Below are positions 1-62,700 of a stretch of DNA of 64,000 nucleotides, in pieces. The notes beneath the pieces were generated by a model. The model did not search any database. It saw only the letters and a list, made by a program, of their open reading frames with translations, and was not told the DNA's origin. The translations under genes and the position numbers were made by a program. Source of the stretch: Amanita rubescens (lineage: Eukaryota; Basidiomycota; Agaricomycetes; Agaricales; Amanitaceae); the NCBI GenBank assembly GCA_015039365.1, contig WION01000084.1, positions 1 to 64,000 of the forward strand, written 5' to 3'. The first letter of the stretch is position 1. Each line of letters starts with the position of its first letter.

Positions 1-3000
1 ACTATTTGTGATCATCAGGGGGTGAGCTGCTTGAGATCATGTTCTATCATGCACTTATATCATACCACATCTGACACTGCATATAGAAAGTGGGTGACCT
101 TGGTGTTTCCATTAATAACTGGCTTGATCCAGCAAGAACAGCAAGTTAGTGGCATTCTTTTTTTCTGGTAGTTTTATCAAATGTTATTCCATGAACAACC
201 TCAGGGGGCAAGTGATATGGATTTTTCTCATCATGCTCAACCAGTCTTACTACACAATAACAGGCAGTAAGTTGGGCATGCAATTTCATTCATTCTTGGG
301 TGTTTAATCAGACCTCATATCACATTAGGATGTTAGTAACACTTCTTCTGCAAGATGCTTCATCATGTCTAATGCTGAAACCAACAGAAAGTCTGTGATG
401 CTGCATTTTTTTTGCCAAATTAATTCATCACAACTTATGCCATGACTAATAGGAAGTAAGTGACTGTGGTTACTCTGCTATTGGGCAAACTCCTCATTCA
501 GTGATGTCAATCAGATAGTCAGTGACACTTGCATTCTTTTCTAAAAGGAAGTGTCATTACTCATCTCAATTCTCAATAGCAAGTGAGTTGCAACTTTTTC
601 TGGATGGAAGCCTTATGGCATTTTTTCTATGACAATAGAGAGTGAGCAAGAACATTTTAAAGGCATTATCATTTCATCATATCCCATGACCAACAGCAAG
701 TGAGTTTATATCAGTTTAAAAGGTATCTTATTACATACTTTACCATGACAGCGAGTGAGTGATGTTGCACATTGTTGGTATGACCATCTCAGCATACTAT
801 AACAAACAGCAAGTGAGTGATATATGTTGCACATCTTTCTGAAAGAAACATACTCACACTTTCTCCTAAAACAGGATGTGAGTAATTAATTTCACATTTT
901 TATGAAAGGTTATCTTAGTCCAACTGTTTACAGGGAGTGGGTGATATTATACATTTTTCTCAATGGCAATCTCATCACATATTTTTGACAACCAACAGAA
1001 AGTAAGTAACCAGCTAGATATACAGCAATCTCATCACATACATATGATGAACAGTCAGTAAGTGACATAGAACATTTTTGAAAGGGGATTTATCATGTCA
1101 TCAATTTCAGGATGTAAGTGACACTACAGATTGATATTACACTCCTTTTCTTATACATAAGGCACAGGGAGTGAGCCTTAACATTGTAGTATTTTGCACA
1201 GTAATCATGGATTCTTTCTGACCAACAGGTTGTGAGTAATATTTCACCTTGTTGTGAAAGACATTCTCATCACATCCATTCCTGTGACCAACAAGTTTGT
1301 GAGCAATATCCACATATTTCTGCAAGGCAGCCTCATCACACCTACTCTCATAACCAACAGCAAGTGAGTGGGATGCATTCTTTCTCTGAAACATCTTTTT
1401 TCCTCATTACCAACAGGCTGTGAGTAATATTGTACATTTTCTGAAATGCAGCCTCATTTTCTATGACTAAAAGTTTGTGCGTATTATTGCACATTTTTCT
1501 GGGAAGGGATCTCATCACATGTTTTTTAATGACCAACAGAAGGTGAGAACCATTGCACACTTTTTAAAAATGCAGTCCCATCCATCATTTCCATGACCAT
1601 AGGAAGTGAGTAATGTTGTGTGTTTTTTCTGGAGGGAAATTTAATCATGTACATATGCTTTTACTATCAACAGGGAGTAAGTGTCATTGCACACTTTTAT
1701 AAGAGGCAATTAATAATCTACTGCATATGGCCAACAGTTTGTGAGTGACACTATCATATTTCTGAAAGGTGTTCTCATTATTATCCCTATTGCCAACAGA
1801 GAGTGAGGAACATTGCATGCTGTCCTGAAGGCAATCTGACCACACCTTTTCCCATGACAAATAGTTTGTAAGTTATACAGCCCATTTTCTGAAATCCACT
1901 CTCAATAAATGGTTTTTTTTTCAATGAACAACAGGGAGTGAGTACACAGGATCTTTTCTGAAAGGCAGTTTCAACTCATCTTCCATGACATCCAGCAAGT
2001 GAGTGGTATTCCAATTCTTTAGAAAAGCAGTTTCATCATATCCTTTCTATGACCATCAGAGAGTGAGTGTCATTAAATACATTCCTGAAATGCAGTCTCT
2101 TCACCTTTTTTATGGCCAACAGAGAGTGAGTAACATCACACCTTTTGTGGAAGAAATTCTTACCTATGACCCACAGGGTGTGAGTGATGCTGCATATTTT
2201 ATAAAACTGATCTCACCACTGCTCTTCCTATGGCTACCAGCAAGTGAGTGACATACTTGAAGCATTTTCTGGAAAGAGAGCTCATCTTTTCCTATGATAA
2301 ACAGCTTGTGAGTGATATAGAATATTTGTTCTGGAAGGCACCATCACATATCCTCATGACTACCAGGGTGTAAGTGACATATTAGATGTGTCTGAGCAGC
2401 AGTCTCACATTATCTACTATTCCTGTGAATAATAGGTGGTGAGTGATACCAACATTCTCAAATGCAATTTTGTACATTTTTATGCCATATAGGGGGTGAG
2501 TAACATTACACATCATTTTGCATGACAAGCCTCATTTCAGTGGTTCTTAACAGTTTGTGAGTGACCAAGCACCCCTTCTGACATGCATTCTTACCACATC
2601 TTTACCTCTCATCAATAGTCAGTGAGTGACAGACATTTTTCTGAAAAGCAGTCTTATTGTATCTTTCTGTGATTAACAGCAAGTTGAGTGACATGATATT
2701 TGAAAGCAAAATTTGGGACATCTCACCTATGGCAAACAGTTTGTGAGCAACATTATACATTCTCCTTACAGGTGATGTGACCTCATTTCTTTCACAACTA
2801 ACAGCAAGTGAGTGACATCACATATTTCTGAAATGCATCTGCATCTAATTTTTCCCTATGAATGTAAGCATGTATGTGAAACAGTGAAATTGACCACTTT
2901 CTAAAAGGCAACTCATTGCACCTTTTTCCTACCACCTACAGTTTGTGAGTTCCATATGGCACAGTGGTTTGAAAAGGCAGTCCTATCATACCTTTTCCTA

Positions 3001-3812
3001 TAACCAATAGGCAGTGAGTGTGAATTCCTCCACAAGGCAATCTCACCATGCCTTGGCCAATCATCAACAGGATGTGAGTAATATTGCACTTTCTTTTTTA
3101 ACATGCCACCCCTTATGACATCTCAATTTGTGAAATTTCTGTTTACAAAACAGCATGTGAGAACATATCCTTATCCTTTCTGTTGCCAGAAGTTACTGTC
3201 ATCCACAGATTGTGAGTCATCATTTCCATCTGCTGACATGATCTGTTTGATACACATACTTTCCTTGCATACAGGTGAGTGACAACAGTACTGGGGTTAT
3301 TAATCCTAATACTAATCCACATATTAGTGTGTAGGTTCAGGGCCACATTGGATTTTGCACTGGCATTCTTATAATTAGCATGAACTTTCCTCAATCCTTG
3401 GAGACCAACCTGTCAAAAAATTTACAGTAACTGTATGTGTTTCCTTTATTCATTTGAAAAGAGACTGAATAGCATTGCACAATAAGCCTATTGCCTGCCG
3501 GATCTTAGTTGGTAAATCATTCCATTTTGTTGCCTCCATTTTGCATGATATCATGTTCCCAGCACTTGTTATCATCTCTAAGCTATCATTTTGGATCCAT
3601 AAGCCATTTTTACACTCAATCCAGGAGGCTTTGGATCAATGCAAGAGAAAAGACATTTTGCAAAAACTGAAGACTGACATTACTCCTGCCTCTATGCCCT
3701 TGGATCATGCAGACTTGGTTGCATTCCTTTATAAGCAGATTAATGATCTTAATGGTATGTACATCATTCAGTATTATACAGTCCATGCTTATGTGTATCT
3801 ATTGCAGGATGA
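1..3812 (+). CDS. G-domain protein paralog 1, C-terminal part, 54 one-codon exons (5' end outside window)
   Basis: This is the plus-strand paralog of the gene at 4753-11586. Its GTPase domain would lie left of the window. What is seen is the post-G-domain region: 53 one-codon exons between 19 and 3330, then a 54-nt exon at 3379-3432 (HELSSILGDQPVKKFTVT), one more one-codon exon TTG at 3509-3511, a 172-nt exon at 3583-3754 (starts LSFWIHKPF, ends INDLN) and a last exon at 3808 with stop TGA 3810-3812. All junctions are GT-AG or GC-AG and the frame stays open. The minus paralog has the same exon lengths (54, 3, 172 nt) at the same places. Family members are P-loop GTPases of unknown cellular role. 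Function of the C-terminal part is not known to me. Confidence 0.85.
19..3330 (+). repeat. Array of 53 one-codon exons separated by mutually similar ~60-nt introns (plus copy)
   Basis: Each unit reads acceptor AG, exactly three bases, then a donor (mostly GTGAGT). First bases of the codons are 19, 87, 142, 205, 264, 329, 388, 453, 515, 580, 639, 697, 752, 810, 875, 934, 999, 1055, 1111, 1168, 1229, 1296, 1361, 1417, 1474, 1540, 1603, 1674, 1738, 1800, 1865, 1935, 1996, 2060, 2123, 2177, 2241, 2305, 2367, 2436, 2493, 2554, 2619, 2680, 2740, 2805, 2869, 2942, 3011, 3071, 3154, 3209 and 3328. None is a stop. Spliced in phase 0 they read GKQGADKEIQRQRQ, then DGKSDGVFQAFKEGFRFG, then QRRGQLGVGFS, then QFQHFADHIC. 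The introns share a loose body: GTGAGTGACATT at the start, TTTTTCTGAAAGGCA in the middle, CCTATGACCAACAG at the end. Confidence 0.9.
3266..3280 (+). other. Zero-length exon / candidate recursive splice site (plus copy)
   Basis: Between the one-codon exon ATT (3209) and TGT (3328) lies CATACAG immediately followed by GTGAGT, an acceptor fused to a donor at 3274/3275 with no exon between. The minus paralog has the same arrangement at the same place (5282/5281). It adds no coding sequence, so it could be a ratchet point of recursive splicing that removes a ~115-nt intron in two steps, or the relic of a lost one-codon exon. Confidence 0.6.
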
Positions 3813-4752
3813 ATAATATGATCATCTCTGGGTGCTCTATTGGCCAGAAATATGCCTAACCATTGAGCCTACATTTATTTTCACAGATACATGTGTCTCC
3901 TTATACACCTTTTTGTACCATCATTTTCTATATTCCCTTTCCCAACAATTCTGTTATGATGTACAATACCAAATACTGATAACTGGCTTGCAATGGCATA
4001 TATGTAGTTTGTGGCCAAGGCATGAGGGATGCAGCTGGATGCTCTACCTGCAATGGATTTTAAGGAATAAGTCAAAGCAGTTAAGAATGGGTTTGAATTT
4101 CCAGGCTTATCAAAACCACACAACCACCCAATGTACTGAGTGTTATGATAATAGAAAACACTACCTACCCAGTTTCAGAATTTTCTATGACCAGGAAAGA
4201 CAATGTTGGTTCAAATACTGTCTAGAGCTTGAATACACTCCAGACAAAAACCTCCAAGAACCTCCAGCAGTAGATATGTAACAGGAAGATCAAAAAATCT
4301 CCCACACACAAGCACTCAACTTGCTCCAAAAGCAGCTGAAACTATCATTCATAAAAGAACTTCCCAAGCACCAGGAAGTGAATTAAAGACTAACTAAATC
4401 TAACTGACAAAGAGCCCAATGAGCAGTTCAAAAAGTTCCATTGACCTCCAAGTTCCAACCTCCAGAAGGAGAATCTGTTGCAGAATTCAGCCCTTTATGT
4501 GGTAGTATTCCTAACCTTGCCTACCTACCCATTGGAGAACCTGTACTCCAAACATCCATGCTACTAGACATGCTACTAGAGACATTGAGGACCATCTAGC
4601 TGTACATTTTTTTTGTAGCAAAAACATTGAAAATTTGTGTATAATGAAAGGAAGGCATAGGAGAGGAGATACATGTATCTTTAAAAATAACTGTAAGTTT
4701 TAATGGTGGTATGGTGTTGCCAGATGGTACCTAAAGGTTATTTATGTATACT
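3813..4752. other. Intergenic region between the two convergent G-domain genes; no supported gene
   Basis: About 940 bp separate the stop codons of the tail-to-tail paralogs. A 149-codon open frame on plus (3832-4281) and an 80-codon frame on minus (3881-4123) show no recognisable domain and no matching copy elsewhere in the window. I take both as chance frames or remnants. The rest, 4282-4752, is AT-rich and holds nothing I can name. Confidence 0.5.
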
Positions 4753-7700
4753 TCATCCCACTATAAATACACATAGGCATTGCTTAATATTATATCAGAT
4801 GGAGTACATACCAGTGATGTCATTAATGTGTTTGTACAGGAATGCAACCAAATTTTCATGACCAGAGGGCATGGAGGCACGAGTAATGCCAGTCTTAATA
4901 TTCTTCAAATAGTCTTTTGTCTTGAATTGATCAAAAGCTTCCACAAGTGATTGTAAAAATGGTTTATGGATCCAAAATGATAGCTTTATAATGATGATAA
5001 TTGCTTTAACAGTGTTAGCATAAGTGTAAAAATGAGATGGATTGATGTACAAACTAAGACCTGGCATGCTATAAGCTTATTGCAGTCATGTCAGTTGCTT
5101 TTTAAAAAGAACAAAGGAGATACATACACTTATTGAATATCTCTTGGATGGTTCAACTCCAAGCAAAGAGAAAAGTTCATGCTAACCATAAGACATGGTG
5201 GGACATCTAGTGTAACATTGAACCTACACACTACCATGTAGAATGTTATCATATTGATACCCCCATAGTGTCACCACTCACCTGTAAAGCATGGAAAGCC
5301 ACACAGGTCAGACACCCAATGTCAAGAGGTGAGCTGAACTAATGGCTCACAATCTATGAATGATACCATCTCTGGGAAATAGAAAGGGTAAGGTATAAGG
5401 TATGTCCTTACATCCTGTCCAGTGTATACAAAGGTAATATTTCAAAGGTGCATAAACTGAAACATGATGAGATGGGATGTGAAAATGTGCTCACCTTCTG
5501 TTGATCACAAGGAAAGATGTGATGAGATTCCCTTTCAGAAACAATGTAGCACATGATCACTCACTGCCTGTCAGTCACAAGAAAGAGCATGATGAGACTG
5601 CCTTTTGTAACTGTTATTTGTTACTCACTTGCTGATGGTCATGGGAAAAGCTTCAATAAGTTTTTCTTCCATATAACTTCACATACTTGCTATTGGCCAT
5701 GAGACAAAATGAGATAAAAATATGTGAATCTGCTCACTTCCTGTTTGTTATGGGAAGCAGTTTTTATTGCTTCCAGGAAAATGTGCAATGCCACTTACAA
5801 ACTGCCATAGGGAAATATGTCATAAAATTGCCTTCCAAAAAATCATGTGATGTCACCCAACTTGCTGTTGATCACAGAAAATATGTTGCCTTTCAAAGAT
5901 TGTATAATGTCACTCACTGTCTGTTTGTCACAGGAAAGAAAAGGTGTGGTGAGACTGTTTCCAAAAATTGTAGAATATTACTCACAGACTGTTGGTCACC
6001 AGAACAGATGAAAAGTGAGACTACCATTCATAATACTTTCTGTCACATCACTCACTTGCTATTGGTCACAGAAAAACATTGGATGATTTCCTTTGAGAAA
6101 TTCAAAGTCACTCACTAGCTATTGGTTACAGGGAAAGATGGGATGAGACTTCTCTTTCAACAATGTGAAGCATTACTCACACCCTGGTGGTCACAAGAAG
6201 AGATGTGTGATGATGCTGCCTTCCAGACAAATGTAGAATGTCACTCACAAGCTGTTGGTTACAGCAAGGATGAAACTGCTTGTCAGAAAACATTTTTATG
6301 GTACTCACCTCCTGGTGGATATGGGAAAAGCTATGGTGAAATCTTTTTTAATAAAATGTGCAGTATCACTCACAACCTGCAGGTCATAGAAAGGATGTCA
6401 CAGTGATATTCCTTTCAGAAAATATGCAACATCACTTACTCGCTGTTGATTGCAGGAAAGTGGTGATGAGATTGTATTTCTAAAAATGGGTAATGCTACA
6501 TACTCGCTGTTTGTCATTAAATTAACAAAATGTAATGAAATCACTTGTTCAAAAAATGTGCCATTTCACCCACTTTCTGTAGGTCATAATTGAGACTGCC
6601 TTGCAGAGAACCTCTACAGTGCACTTACTCCCTGTTAGACATAAAAGAAAAATATTATTTGATAAATCCTTCAGAAAAATGGGTAATGTCCACTCACAAA
6701 CTGTGGAGGTTGGCATAGGATAAGATTTCAGTGCAGCACAGTGTTACTCACTCTCTGTTGATCATAAGAAAAACATAGTCTGAGCATGTTTAGGAAAGTT
6801 AATAATATGACTCACAAACTGTTCATCATGAATAAGGTACAATAAATTTCTCTTCAGAAAATGTGCCATGATACAGTCACTCACCCCCTGTTAGAAAAAC
6901 ATTATAAAATGGCCTTTCAGAAAATATGTGAATTTTTACTCACTTCCTGTTGGTTATGAAGGAAGAAAGAATGCACAGCATTTCAGAAAAATGACCAATG
7001 TCACTCACACCCTGTTGATCATATGGAAGCATGTGATGATACTGTCCTTCATAACACAAAAGTGCATATCACCCACAAACTGTTGGTAATAAGGAGAGAT
7101 CTGATGTGACTTTGAAGGAAATGTTCAGTGCAGTGTGACTTACTGCCTGTTGGTCATGGAAAAAATGATGTGGGCTGTTTCCAGAACAAACTGCAAATAT
7201 TGCATACTCGCTGTTGGTCATAAAAAGTGATGAGACTGCCCTGAAAGAAATTCAAGGTTTCTCACAATCTGTTGAAAAAAGATGTGAAGATGCTTGACAG
7301 AAGATTGTAAAGTGGCACTGACAACCTATGTGGTAATATGAAATAATTCCATAAGATTCATTTTCAGTGCTTGAATGTGGCTCACTCCCTGTAGGTCATA
7401 GGAAATAATGTCATGACATAAATTTGCTGTGCCACTCACATCCTGTTGATCATATGAAAAGATTTAATAACACTGTTTTTTGGGAAAGTGACCTATTTGA
7501 CTCACCGACTATTTATCACAAGAGAAGATGTAATGAGATTGGTTGCCTTTTACTAATCTGCATTGTCACTTACTTTCTGTTGGCATAGGAAAAGATGAGA
7601 TTACATTTTGGAAAAATTGGAAAATTTACTCACTCCCTGATCATCACAGAAAGATTTGATTGAATTGCATTCCAGAATGTAGTGCAATATTGCTCACATC

Positions 7701-10700
7701 CTTTTTACCATTGGGAGAGTTGTGAGATTTCCATCCCAAAAATGTTTAATATTGCTTACTTGCTGTTTGACATGACAAAATATGTGCTAAGTGAACCTTT
7801 CAAAAAAATATGCAAATCACTCACTCTCTGTTGGTAATATGAAAAGAGTCAAAAACATGCTAGCAAAGTCACTCACTTGCTGTTGACCATGGGAATCAAT
7901 GCAATGACATTCCCTTTAACATGTTCTCATGTTCTCACTCACTCGCTGATGGTGGTAGTAAAAAGCTCATGAGCCTTCCTATCAGGAGAGAAAATACTAT
8001 ATTGCTCACTTGCTATTGGGAAAAGATGAGGGGACATTTGTCAGAAAGGAATGAAATGTACTGACTCGCTGATTGTCACCACTGTGTCATGAATTTGCCC
8101 ATGAGAAGGCCAGCCAGAGTCGCTCACTTCCTGCAGATGGCATGAAAATTGTGAGTTGGCTCCTTCACAGAAAATGCAGGTCCCTAACCTTCTGTTGGTC
8201 CCAGCATTGTACATATGTATATGATGAAACCAGGCTTCAGAAACATTACTCACATTCTGTTGATTGTAGCAATGAGATCTGATCAGGCATCCTGCAATTC
8301 CATGCTGTCACTTACTGCCTGTTGTTGTATGGTAAGACTGGTTGAGTAACATCAGAGTCACAGAAAGAAATGTGTTACTGGCCTTCTGTAGTACATGGAA
8401 TGTAATTTGATGAAACTGCCTTCCAGGTAGAAGTAGAATAGCATCTAAGCTTGAATTTGAGCATATACCCATGTCAATTGAGTCAGTAGTCCATGAGATA
8501 TAAAATGTTTTGTGAGGCAATGTCATTGGAACGGTTTTGTGGCCGACATGGTGGGATGACAAAACCGGTATCTAGCAATTATATGACAGTGGTGAAAGTC
8601 ATGCTACAATGTTGAATAACCTTAATATGTCTCAGATAAGTGCTTGGAATGCTTACATTGCATCAATGTACCCTCCCAGGTGACCAACTGCCTCCTCTCA
8701 CACCCCTGGCTATTCTTGCTATGAAGTCTCAACCATGAGTGGCTACAACATCCATATTGTATCCAATCTGCATTTAATTCACTTATTCTTCCTCCCAGTG
8801 ACCACTGGAGGTGGGCCAAAGCAGCTGATGGGCCAAATTGCCCAGTATCCCAGTTACCTCTTTGCCTCAAGGAGGGTGGTGTCAGGTGTAGAAGTGACTA
8901 GGGCACTTCAAACTATCATGAATGGGTACCTCTCCACAGATGCAACAATGTGGAATGTAAGGAGGACAGAGATAAAGGCTGTGGTGGTGTCTAAGAAGCC
9001 ATTACTCACTGCAAAGCATACAGTGGAATGCCTAGCTGTGATTAGCACATAAGGATTGGACAATTGAGGGCTGGAACAGGGTCATTTAGTGATATATGAC
9101 CAAAATCAATTGTCTAGAGTCAACTGAGGGGATATGAGCCTGGATGGGGGGAAGGGAGGAGCTGAGTGACAGGTGGGTATGGGGGATGTCAAAGTTCACA
9201 GGTGAATCAACAATTCTATGAGGACATATGATATAGGAGGGACCCATACTTGCTTACAGGATGGATGGGGGGAGGGATAGGCAACTTTATATCACCATTC
9301 TGAAGGATAGCCTTGAAGCCAGCTTTGATTACTAAGGCAGGAATTTTGAAGTCAGCAGGACAGTGATCAAAAACACACTTGTGAGAGGTCAAGAGCTGGT
9401 CTAGTAAACACAGGAATGCAGAAGGAGTGTTTCTACTAACCTTCTTGTTGGCAGCATTGTACATATGTATATGAAACCAGGCTTCAGAAACATTACTCAC
9501 ATTCTGTTGATTTGTAGCAATGAGATCTGATCAGGATCCTGCAATTCCATGCTGTCACTTACTGCCTGTTGTGTATGGTAAGACTGGTTGAGTAACATCA
9601 GAGTCACAGAAAGAAATGTGTTACTGGCTTCTGTAGTACATGGAATGTAATTTGATGAAACTGCCTTCCAGGTAGAAGTATTATGTCACTAACTCTCTGT
9701 TGTTTGTTGGATCAGGCCTGATATGTGAAGGAAACATCAGTGTCACCCACTTTCTGTAAACAAATCAGGTCAATGTGCTACTTTAGTGCATGACAGAAAA
9801 CTATTGAGCCACTCACTCCCTGGTGATTATAAAATAGTACATGACAAGATTTCTTAAAAGTATAGAATTACTCACTTGCTTTTATCATACACAAGATGCT
9901 ACTTTGGATGGTTTTGCAGAAACTGAGCAATATCACTCACTTCCTGTTGATCATGACAAGACTGTTGAGGACCAAAGTGAAGTATTGCCACTCACAAACT
10001 TTTTGTGATGAGGCAGGGAATCAAAGTCCATGCTGGTTCAATTCTACTTACCCACTATTTTCTATATCATCAGATCCTGCCACAAAGAATTTAACAATAT
10101 GTAACTCACATGTATTTCATCTAATTCTTGAACAGACATCTAAAGCATGACTAATTCAGCTGGAATGCAAAAAAATTAGAGTGTTACTGTTTACTTCCTG
10201 TTGTATATGTTGTGCAAGTATTCACTGTCCTAGGTGGAAGATACCTACATGCCTGTCCACCTTTTCCAATTCACCACTTTGCATACTAAATATTTGACAA
10301 AATGTACTTACCCAGAAATGTGGAAACTTAAGAGATACACAAATAACCACATTGTCCCAGGTATCTTTATTGGCCAAGACATGTCTGAACAATGTCAATG
10401 TTTCAACATGTTATATTTGAAATGCCCTCACCGAAGTGCTGATTTAGCACAGAGATCAAGGTTGTTCATCTGTGTTGTGATGAATAGCTCATGCAGGTTA
10501 ATATCATCAATTGCATCAGCAGTCTGCTGAGTTAGTTCAGGACAATTCTTCTCTGGCAAATCCATGTCTATCAAATCACATAGTTTCCATTTTGAAGAAG
10601 GAGTATTTGTTATACTAACCTCCTAATCTGACATATGCCTTAGGTGGATATTTAACATCCAAGACTTTAGGAAGATAAACTGCTTGAAAAGTGCTCTCAG

Positions 10701-11586
10701 CATTTTCCATGGCCATTTCCCACTTATCTTCATTCTCTACATCTGTCAACTTGACAAATTCATTGATTATTTGACCATCAAACTTGGTGAATATAACCAC
10801 CAAAGGAACTGTAAAGAACCACTTTGTCAATGCATAGTAAATTTGATGATGGGGGAAAAGGATAGAGATGGATTCACTAAAAGTTACCTTTGCTTGTCCC
10901 TTTGTTAAAGAATTCAAGTTCTGTGGGTAGAATGGGACGAGGGCTGTCCATCGGTATACAATACCTTTGAGAACCTTGGTCAGCCACCTAGACAAAGAGC
11001 TGAAACAAGATATGTACCATATCACATGTAGCTGATCTTTTAACTCAGTTTCTCCAGACCTTTTTTCAATGAACTCCCAAGCAACCCTCAATTCTTCAGT
11101 TGCACCAGATTCAAAGCCCTGAGAGTCATGGAAGATAAAGTTACTCCCAGGGTAAGTAAGTTGATGTTCAATATTATGTAGACCTCTCTGTCATTATTGC
11201 ACATGTATGAATGTGAGATCAAACTTAATTATTTGACTTACCTCCATTGATGGCATCAAATGAATTCCAGAAGCCACCAATTCTTTACCTGGAAGGGATT
11301 GTGAATTCAGAAAAGGGCAAGGATCAGTTTGGCTCACCATGTTCATCATATATGATGGGCTTTGCCCCCTTTGTAACACCACAAACCTTCTCCAAAATGG
11401 TTGTCTTTCCTGCATTGGCCCTCCCTATGACAAGGATACGAAAATATGGGCATAGGTATTGATCCCTAAGCATTTTTACATGTGTCTCATCTGCATCTGA
11501 TATATACATACAAGTCAAGCCTTGGTAATGAAAGAAGATGTCAGAGTTAGCCTACCCAAAGGAAGCACAGCAGCAGGATCTGCCAT
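4753..11586 (-). CDS. G-domain (P-loop GTPase) protein, 72 exons, 59 of them a single codon
   Basis: Start ATG 11586 (MADPAAVLPL). GTPase exons: 11586-11556, 11496-11338, 11288-11242, 11187-11018, 10964-10888, 10808-10620, 10567-10432. They carry G1 GRANAGKTT, G3 FHDSQGFESG and G4 FTKFDG, and end near TTQMNNLDLCAKSALR. Small exons follow: 15 nt (10326-10312), 4 nt (10252-10249), GAA 10197, 30 nt (10139-10110), four single codons, then the 53-codon array, a 54-nt exon (5181-5128), TTT 5053, 172 nt (4983-4812) and a last exon with stop 4755-4753. Every phase adds up, giving about 422 residues with no frame break. The 15-nt and 4-nt exons are the least certain. The P-loop and G motifs mark a guanine-nucleotide-binding protein of a family common in Agaricomycetes; its cellular role is unknown to me. 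Confidence 0.85.
5276..5290 (-). other. Zero-length exon / candidate recursive splice site (minus copy)
   Basis: On the minus strand GCTTTACAG is directly followed by GTGAGT (junction 5282/5281), between one-codon exons ATT (5353) and TGT (5230). It sits at the same place as the junction at 3274/3275 of the plus paralog. Confidence 0.6.
8197..8445 (-). repeat. Segment A of a ~240-bp direct duplication inside the minus microexon array
   Basis: This stretch contains one-codon exons AAG 8385, GCA 8318 and AAT 8256 and is nearly identical to 9450-9690, with a few single-base indels. Only one copy is needed to match the plus paralog. Here the AAG codon is intact and precedes a GC donor (GCCAGT), as at the homologous plus position 205-212. 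Confidence 0.8.
8446..9449. other. ~1.0-kb unrelated sequence inserted between the duplicated segments
   Basis: No intron-like 60-bp units occur here, unlike on either side. Short open frames exist on both strands (for example 8735-9052 plus) without recognisable domains. In the gene model it is intronic. No clear terminal repeats were seen. Confidence 0.5.
9450..9690 (-). repeat. Segment A' of the direct duplication, with a damaged exon
   Basis: Near-identical to 8197-8445. It repeats the AAT (9503) and GCA (9565) exons, but the exon matching AAG has only two bases (9629-9630) between acceptor and donor. This copy would break the frame, so it is probably skipped or is an assembly duplicate. 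Confidence 0.75.
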
Positions 11587-54900: not shown

Positions 54901-56227
54901 TCCAGAAGTGGATCCCGACGACACCGATGGTTGGGTTCGTCGTTTTGCTGGTATCCAAAAATTCGATCTATTCCCCAATAGGGCCGAGGTGTCTTTCCAA
55001 ACTCATAAAGTACCCGCAGCTTATCCTTCCAAGCACCCGGGCTGGTTTTTAGAAAAATGGCTTGCCTTCAACTGGAGAGTTTGTGCATGCGCCGAGTCGC
55101 AAAGCCTGGAGAGAGGGTTAGAGGAGAGTGAGAAGACCGTCGTGCTTTGTCGCAGTTTGGCCGCTGACCGGCCACGCGTCTTCCGAAAGGCGCTAGCTCT
55201 CTCGCTGAATAACCTTGGTTTTTCTCACTATAAGACGGGCGACTTGGAGAAGGGTCTACCAGTTATGGAGGAGGCTGTATCGGTTTATCGCGATTTGGCC
55301 ACTATCCACCGAGACAAATTCCGAGAGGAGTTGGCCACCTTGCTGAATAACGTTGGCATTTTCTGCCGTAAGGCGGAAAACTTTGAGAAGGGTCTAATAG
55401 CCGCAGAGGAGGCATCATCTTTCCATCGCGATTTGGCTGCAATCAAACCAGACATATTCCGACAGAAGCTGGTCACGTCGCTAGGTAACCTTGGTTATTT
55501 TCACTTTAAGATGGGGAACTTTGAGAAGGGTCTACTAGTCGCGGAGGAGGCTGTATCGATTTGTCGTGATTCGGCCGCTACCCAACCGTTCCGAGCGCTG
55601 CTGGTCCCCTCACTGAATAATCTCAGTTGTTTATACTCTAAGAGGGGCAACTTTGAGAAGGGTCTACTAGTCGCGGAGGAGGCTGTATTGATTTGTCGTG
55701 AATCGGCCGCTGACGTAGTATCCCGAGACTGGCTCGAGCTGCTGGCCCTCTTGTTGAACAACCTTAGTTGGAGGTTGCAAGCACTCGGTCGATGTAGCGA
55801 AGCATTGGAATTCGCACAGGAGTCTCTCGAGTTAACTCGTGCTCTCGCTGCCGGAGAATTCGCACCTTCATCTTTTCAAGCCCACCTTCCTGATATGTTA
55901 GACACGGCTGTGGTGTCTCTACAGAAACTTGATCAACATGACGAAGCGCAGCAAGTTGGGCACAAGACGGTAGTCATCGGGTGGCCAATTTTGGAGACCG
56001 GCCCCGGAGATGTAGAAATGCGGGAATCTCCTTTGGAATCTCTCAAGCGGATGGAGGAGGTATATGAGTTGAGGAAGGAGATTGCATCAATCAAGCAGGG
56101 CCCTCAGGCTTGTGACTTTGATATACATAATGGCACTGCCCAGTCTCCACTGCTGGGCAGTTACTGGAGGTGCGCGCTTTGCCTGAGGTATATGGTCGGT
56201 TTTCTCTCTCTCGAATTATCAGTATGA
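51933..56227 (+). CDS. NLR-like protein: helical N-domain, NACHT NTPase, TPR repeats
   Basis: ATG 51933 (MFRWLFGRKSATST). Introns inferred: 52111-52183, 52336-52387 (GC donor), 52715-52765, 52809-52866 and 54366-54424. The N-terminal helical region (GWDVIDCVVPILTIAKDALS, RLNQLVDRLEEIRAIIDYTT) resembles effector or adaptor domains of fungal NLRs but I cannot name it. NACHT: Walker A LSGMAGTGKSTIARTVAKHL, Walker B LMIIIDALDEGDED, then VTSRRQSDD. C-terminal half: about six ~42-residue TPR/kinesin-light-chain-like repeats (for example LNNLGFSHYKTGDLEKGLPV, LGNLGYFHFKMGNFEKGLLV). The N-domain/NACHT/TPR layout is that of fungal nonself-recognition and programmed-cell-death receptors. That role is inferred from family. 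Confidence 0.8.
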
Positions 56228-61639: not shown

Positions 61640-62700
61640 TGTATATGGCATGTTGGACTTGAACATGTTGTGCCAGGAAGTGTTGCATTTATACACATAT
61701 ACCCATGAAATGTCACATCTGAACATTTCCATAATTGGCATGTTAGACTTGCACATGTTGTGCCAAGAAGTGTTGCATTTATACACATATACTTATGAAA
61801 TGTCACATCTGAACATTTCCATAATTGGGATGTTAGGCTTGCACATGTTGTGGAAGGAAGTGTTGCATTTATACACATATACTTATGAAATGTCAAATCT
61901 GAACATTTCCATAACTGGCATGTTAGGCTTGCACATGTTGTGCCAAGAAGTGTTGCATTTATACACATATACTTATGAAATGTCAAATCTGAACATTTCC
62001 ATAACTGGCATGTTAGACTTGCACATGTTGTGGAAGGGAGTGTTGCATTTACACATATGGACTTGTATCATGTCTCATCTAGGCACTTCCACAACTGGTA
62101 TGTTAGGCTTGCACATGTTATGTATTAAAGTGTTTTATTTATACACATGTAACATCGCATAGTGGAAGATGGCCTACCCACTTGCTACCCTAGTTGTTCT
62201 GGTTAGACTTGCACATGTTGTGCCAAGAAGTGTTGCATTATACATAAGTAGTGTTGCATTATACACATATACTTATGAAATGTCACATCTGAACATTTCC
62301 ATAATTGGCATGTTAGGCTTGCACATGTTGTGGAAGGAAGTGTTGCATTTATACACATACACTTATGAAATGTCAAATCTGAACATTTCCATAACTGGCA
62401 TGTTAGACTTGCACATGTTGTGGAAGGAAGTGTTGCATTTATACACATATACTTATGAAATGTCAAATCCGAACATTTCCATAACTGGCATGTTAGGCTT
62501 GCACATGTTGTAGAAGGAAGTGTTGCATTTATACACATATACTTATGAAATGTCAAATCTGAACATTTCCATAACTGGCATGTTAGGCTTGCACATGTTG
62601 TGGAAGGAAGTGTTGCATTTACACATATGGACTTGTAACATGTCTCATACAGGCACTTCCGCGACTGGTATGTTAGGCTTGCACATGTTATGCATTAAAA
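61640..62700 (+). repeat. Satellite array, about 12 units of ~85-92 bp
   Basis: The unit core reads GTTGCATTTATACACATATA, CTTATGAAATGTCAAATCTG, AACATTTCCATAACTGGCAT, GTTAGGCTTGCACATGTTGT. Copies between about 61790-62060 and 62280-62620 are nearly identical; edges are diverged. Open frames on both strands through it are translations of the repeat, not genes. It begins right after the stop of the gene at 61564. Confidence 0.85.

Follow-up and report, generated by a model that had tools for sequence, protein, structure and literature searches.

Runs of putative single-codon exons in the C-terminal tails of GTPase-like genes from Amanita rubescens

The MEGs of Schistosoma mansoni are described as containing 10 to 20 exons of 6-81 bp (3-81 bp in the abstract), most of them 15 bp long, which are separated by introns of 0.1-5 kb (PMC10526429). 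The ultra-short microexons described in plants include the 1-nt exons of APC11 and VPS55 (PMC4674806, PMC8831610), and for the single-nucleotide exon of APC11 it has been proposed that splicing occurs by intron definition with successive removal of the introns (PMC4674806). In fungi, a single regulated microexon has been reported for Xlr2 of Trichoderma, in a paper whose abstract states that functional microexons were previously undescribed in filamentous fungi (PMC11121469). Introners, as presented in the consulted parts of two papers, are near-identical introns that occur in many copies and have been inserted in many genes throughout a genome (PMC9860276, PMC4457414). In the open-licence literature, exons as small as those reported here appeared only as scattered single cases, and we found there no description of such one-codon arrays or of introns spreading every three nucleotides.

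Here we analysed a stretch of 64,000 nucleotides of the A. rubescens genome (the window). An initial annotation had proposed that 53 consecutive exons of exactly one codon each, none of them a stop codon, start at position 19. The run of AG-NNN-GT/GC units is indeed unbroken, and none of its triplets is a stop (0/52), but according to the chain caller that we applied to the window it consists of 52 units, not 53. The downstream exon that had been placed at 3379-3432 was not retained, the predicted terminal exon of this gene (gene A) being instead the one given in Table 1. Beyond what that annotation contained, we found a second array in the window, a genome-wide family of similar genes, and an intron that they have in common. 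Array A is therefore confirmed, and it is part of a larger, genome-wide phenomenon. Judging from sequence, we estimate at about 0.87 the probability that the window contains the 3' end of one member, and the whole of a second member, of a G-domain (GTPase-like) family whose tails are spliced as one-codon exons.

Table 1. Arrays and predicted exons of genes A and B in the window
Feature	Position	Strand	Remarks
Array A	19..3211	+	52 three-nucleotide units, the first GGG at 19 and the last ATT at 3209-3211, with intron-like stretches between them
Gene A, predicted terminal exon	3275..3334	+	VSDNSTGVINPNTNPHISV + stop; similar terminal exons in gene B and L042
Gene B, predicted first exon	11556..11586	-	ATG at 11586 (MADPAAVLPL)
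Gene B, G-domain exon with P-loop	11338..11496	-	P-loop ILVIGRANAGKTT
Gene B, G-domain exon	11242..11288	-	
Gene B, G-domain exon	11018..11187	-	
Gene B, G-domain exon	10888..10964	-	
Gene B, G-domain exon	10620..10808	-	
Gene B, exon	10432..10567	-	
Gene B, exon	10312..10384	-	ends in ..KFPHFW; introns in phase 0 from here on
Gene B, 12-nt exon	10249..10260	-	VDRH; aligned in 5 paralogs
Gene B, single-codon unit	10195..10197	-	GAA (E)
Gene B, 30-nt exon	10110..10139	-	MSVQELDEIH
Array B	5351..10054	-	TGG (W, 10054) to ATT (I, 5353-5351); 58 chain units including those doubled by the insertion
Extra DNA within array B	8436..9435	-	~1 kb, flanked by a ~250 bp duplication of neighbouring units
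Gene B, predicted terminal exon	5249..5281	-	VSGDTMGVSI + stop

The junctions of array A are spaced with great regularity. Within positions 1-3420 of the window, the pattern YAG-Nk-GTRNG occurs 45 times with k=3 and five times with all other values of k from 0 to 15 taken together; up to position 3334 there are 44 such k=3 junctions, compared to a mean of 0.6 and a maximum of 4 in 1,000 first-order Markov simulations. One unit, the GGG at 205, is followed by a GC donor, several donors are weak, and an alternative reading three nucleotides later, as TCA, exists for the unit at 515. The 5' part of gene A is missing because the window starts at the end of a contig (contig 770 of a 75.7-Mb assembly). 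Contig 168 was considered as a source of this 5' half and rejected: the copy of array A present there comprises the last four units only, and the next 10 kb contain no match. Upstream of the four remaining units (L060; contig 168, 140000-149999) there is a chromodomain-like stretch, which we take to resemble those of gypsy-type retroelements. As for the wider composition of the window, its G+C content is 37-38% across the arrays (1-8000) versus 45-56% from 12 kb onwards, and it contains a ~90 bp tandem repeat of ~11 copies (61646-62694) as well as a 138 bp tandem repeat, a multiple of three, within a 606-aa ORF (55201-55551).

In gene B, the last exon of the G-domain set ends in phase 0, so that each unit of the array that follows is a whole codon. 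The ~1 kb insertion in array B is not present in L039, a near copy of gene B on contig 168. At least one donor is altered in a duplicated unit.

Similar arrays are found throughout the genome. When up to two mismatches were tolerated, a 20-base junction pattern (CAACAGNNNGTGAGTGACAT) gave 4,303 hits in the A. rubescens genome, compared to six for the reversed control; elsewhere the pattern was found in six stretches from the entire bacterial and archaeal collection and in four from the viral collection. When no mismatch was permitted and the gap was allowed to vary from 0 to 12, there were 1,465 places (control 0), with a gap of 3 in 94 of the 100 matches listed. Relatives of the G domain account for at least 347 exon matches in the genome, and many genes of the GTPase-like family of A. 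rubescens contain runs of single-codon units, the longest of ~120. We studied 12 loci (A, B and L040-L049), leaving out L039 as a near copy of B. In these loci, the pattern YAG-Nk-GTRAGT (k=0-15) has k=3 in 554 of 594 junctions, and no k=3 junction was found on the opposite strand. Wherever upstream sequence was aligned (B, L040, L042, L043 and L044), the array is preceded by G-domain exons that share its strand and lead into it in phase. In an alignment of five paralogs around the units W, F, E, Q/K, G and K, the codons occupy identical AG/GT sites, and a 17-unit run common to paralogs reads WFEQGKKETDREIKYDG, or a variant of it, in nine listed loci. For L042 we built by hand a model of 88 exons, 78 of which are of 3 nt, that has a single open frame from the G domain to KIVSNTGS and a stop; it starts within the G domain, its 5' end lying outside the stretch, and it treats one broken unit as part of a longer intron.

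Several lines of evidence support the view that the triplets behave as codons. Firstly, stop codons are nearly absent from them. Using a strict pattern in which the triplet may be any three bases, we found one stop (TGA) among 578 units of the 12 loci, versus 36.5 expected from column composition, and one among 694, versus 50.1 expected, when L065 and L066 were included. With the scored caller there was one stop in 723 units of the 12 loci, versus 46.9 expected and a minimum of 30 in 2,000 column shuffles, and the depletion was similar once duplicate units had been removed; it should be noted that the matrix of this caller was built from arrays A and B, which fixes the AG and GT ends by construction. 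All 768 chain units together contain three stops, including two 2-nt units of L040 that were read as three. A genome-wide pattern for TRR units (CAACAGTRRGTGAGTGACAT) matched nine places, corresponding to eight TGG, one TGA and no TAA or TAG. The sole TGA unit matched by this exact pattern is located in the short array of L045 (contig 537). Secondly, when array A was aligned with that of L039 on the introns only, all 52 units paired in register. The same residue is present in 32 of the 52 units (mean of 5 and maximum of 15 upon shuffled pairing) and the same codon in 25, the aligned intron interior being 70% identical; tested against reshuffled observed substitutions, the residue identity gives p=0.0003. 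The dN/dS ratio is 0.56 in the unit frame, versus 0.68 and 1.16 in the other two frames; in a post hoc split it is 0.35 for the first 40 units and 2.2 for the last 12, which give 0.42 in the +1 frame. Thirdly, retention of the intron would break the frame or lead to a stop in 674 of 734 units.

The third base of the units deserves separate mention. It is A or T in 531 of the 578 strict units of the 12 loci and C in 10, and the C-ending units that could be placed are located in L045, L046 and L047. Loss of CpG at the NNC/GT junction is a possible reason for the scarcity of C, which the scored caller also penalises at this position. In 12 units shared by eight close paralogs the third base is invariant, a feature that purifying selection on codons does not predict. 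G is rare at the third base in the 12 arrays. A G next to the donor would pair best with U1.

We also considered another reading frame for the tails. When the units are joined, their +1 frame is also nearly open (four stops versus 10.6 expected from unit order), and for the joined units of L042 and L066 the resulting tail looked plausible. We decided against it in view of the near-absence of stop triplets from the unit frame, and because both the substitutions in the 52 units aligned between A and L039 and a segment conserved in two proteins, P0001 and P0003, favour the unit frame. It is possible that the +1 frame applies to young arrays that carry a 4-nt unit. Units of such deviating size are AATT with CA, CATT, CA and CA in L040, CAAT in L046 and CTTC in L047. 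These 2-nt and 4-nt units break the frame in the three loci, and the one in L047 is uncompensated and leaves the unit frame; they may be sequencing or assembly errors, recent damage, or a genuine other frame.

The two proteins were identified in a search with the L042 protein, which gave 1,253 matches; 42 of the best 120 were inspected by eye. P0001 (386 aa, on a JGI contig of 1,446 nt) and P0003 (311 aa, on a JGI contig of 1,903 nt) lead from the G domain via VDRA or VGRD to the 10-residue exon, and then carry WFEKGKKESDREIEYDG and WFEHGKKDTDKQIVYDG, which are the counterpart of 17 successive single-codon units, joined. Both are predicted proteins of a relative, their best exon match listed in the A. 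rubescens genome being 89% identical, and they could represent either spliced messages or an intronless relative. Their tails beyond these 17 residues matched no array. A related WF segment is present in the more distant JGI proteins P0013, P0044, P0045 and P0049, which brings its carriers to six among the 42 inspected of the best 120. P0006, the public model assigned to the L042 region by its close sequence match and by the length of its contig (that of contig 1), ends before the tail, and P0053 reaches the W and then diverges. Protein searches with the tail regions alone returned P0003 itself or nothing. Protein and DNA searches of the A. rubescens genome, run without a positive control, revealed no intronless copy of the tail (a retrocopy or an uninvaded source), and a candidate on contig 557 was discarded as a low-complexity match only. 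With the PF01926 (MMR_HSR1) profile, the L042 protein scored 20.8 bits, below the Pfam cut-off of 21.9, and P0044 scored 19.3; P0001 and P0003 gave no match. Despite the score below the cut-off, the P-loop and the PF01926 labels on several relatives suggest that the family probably consists of GTPases. The proposal of the initial annotation that the triplets are translated as single-codon exons thus finds support in the depletion of stops, in the in-register conservation of residues, in the frame that other family members keep open from their G-domain exons up to a terminal stop, and in the two JGI-derived proteins with a matching uninterrupted run of residues. Taken together, this strong sequence evidence makes splicing to single-codon exons the best explanation, and a likely one.

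If the tails are spliced in this way, the introns, of ~61 nt and with strong GTGAGT donors, would be recognised by intron definition and excised in succession, so that the upstream exon gains one codon at each step. All units are one codon in phase 0, so that skipping any of them keeps the frame, and the tail would therefore tolerate errors or vary in length. This symmetry raises the question of whether the units are included stochastically, so that every mRNA would contain its own selection of codons and the tail would be a mixture by design. Junction scores are uneven along array A and P0001 is one residue short near the single-codon E unit, which would agree with this idea; however, a lost unit or an alternative boundary fits P0001 equally well, and the conservation of residues between A and L039 indicates that most units are used. 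We consider a mixture by design possible but doubtful.

The introns themselves bear on how the arrays arose. Their median length in the 12 loci is 61 nt (5-95%: 51-68), and each unit has GT/GC-AG ends, which the caller requires, together with the donor and acceptor context of U2-type introns. A 62-nt consensus is identical in eight of the 12 arrays, is matched at 98% in L044 and at 90-92% in A and B, and is shorter in L043 (81%). The genome contains 352 exact copies of it; those among the matches listed are on contigs 12, 13, 79 and 82, and the arrays that were read with their upstream sequence belong to the G-domain family. Between A and L039, donor position +5 is identical in 50 of 51 cases and +4 in 46 of 51, versus 0.70 in the interior, these being bases that the caller matrix favours. 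The level of intron similarity within arrays ranges from 0.59 to 0.88. Among the near-consensus introns, 41 of 47 in L040, 11 of 12 in L046 and 26 of 34 in L047 are exact copies, and the units between them differ. Furthermore, L047 and L065 have gene bodies that are 98.9% identical over 1,519 nt, and their 3' flanks are similar too, but their tails are largely different: the longest run shared by their 35 and 32 variable units is four, which is reached in 9.6% of unit shuffles. The near-identical introns of young arrays, the differing codons between them and the tails of L047 and L065 suggest that an introner-like element is at work and that the tail is hypervariable. Under this scenario, one 62-nt introner-like intron would have invaded the tails of many members of the family, in bursts that occurred at different times, and the tail codons would be replaced rapidly. 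No inverted ends were noticed by eye in the 62-nt consensus, and no consistent target duplication in three young arrays.

Instead of bursts of an introner, the arrays could reflect tandem duplication, or an exchange between arrays that may extend to whole tails. In the first case, they could have grown solely through tandem copying of an intron together with its codon, which then mutated in the ordinary way, with no introner involved. L066 and L068, whose gene bodies are identical over 873 nt, differ precisely by one CGA unit that lies beside another CGA, and L046 has an excess of identical codons in neighbouring units (p=0.017), which is not clear in L040 (p=0.12) and L047 (p=0.13). Growth by duplication alone is nevertheless unlikely: the introns of L040, L046 and L047 are mostly exact copies while their codons differ, intron similarity is flat with distance in eight of the 12 arrays (it drops by 0.04 to 0.11 in L044, L045, L046 and L047), and the longest repeated runs of units never exceed the shuffle maximum in any of 14 arrays. 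Block exchange between arrays was also considered and set aside, because shared runs are not clearly above chance: in three of 91 array pairs they are longer than in any of 30 shuffles, each time by a single unit.

Removal of the whole array as one long intron, or skipping of most of it, would leave the tail untranslated. The absence of the WF segment from 26 of 26 further inspected relatives, nearly all of which are public gene models, would agree with this; however, unused triplets would not avoid stops or keep their residues over 52 aligned units, and two JGI proteins hold the joined counterpart of 17 units, all of which makes this very improbable. Although repeats of ~65 bp with a single consensus look satellite-like, a DNA repeat that merely resembles introns would hardly continue the phase and the strand of the preceding G-domain exons in five loci, keep a spacing of almost always three with nearly no stops, or show near-identity of the 62-nt part and not of the 3-nt part in young arrays, and this explanation is highly improbable.

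If splicing to single-codon exons is correct, the spliceosome handles 50 to 120 consecutive three-nucleotide exons, an exon needs to be only one codon long, intron definition is tested at its limit, and gene finders miss large coding tails. The spreading of an intron every three nucleotides in one gene family would represent a route to new introns as well as to protein variation. We tentatively speculate that the arrays act as a codon-by-codon generator of diversity, in which a mobile 62-nt intron splits the tails of the GTPase-like genes into single codons, and tails whose codons lie between identical introns can be rewritten while the gene bodies change by 1%, yielding gene-specific and, through skipping, perhaps mRNA-specific C-termini; in a mycorrhizal fungus, this could possibly serve recognition.

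How, then, do the Amanita arrays compare with the systems described above? Like the MEGs of Schistosoma, they would consist of mostly very short coding exons, which in MEGs are nearly all multiples of three, and they are hard to annotate automatically; MEGs vary by splicing (PMC10526429). Unlike the symmetric micro-exons of MEGs, mostly of 15 bp and with introns of 0.1-5 kb, the Amanita units comprise a single codon and form runs that reach ~120, with introns of a median of 61 nt that are mostly of one consensus. MEGs feature an N-terminal secretion signal and a secreted product; gene B starts with MADPAAVLPL followed by the G domain. Like the plant microexons, the Amanita units are too small for exon definition, and sequential intron definition would fit the arrays; in the consulted parts of the plant studies, however, microexons are isolated or two adjacent ones, with no long runs and no shared intron family (PMC4674806, PMC8831610). 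Xlr2 likewise is a fungal case, but it has a single microexon, as far as the consulted sections describe it, whereas Amanita has long runs. Finally, the presence of 352 exact intron copies and of one identical consensus in eight of 12 arrays is what characterises introners, and the Amanita introns have exact splice-like boundaries and form arrays of different age; introners insert in many genes, and those Amanita copies that were read are stacked at intervals of three nucleotides within tails of a single gene family.
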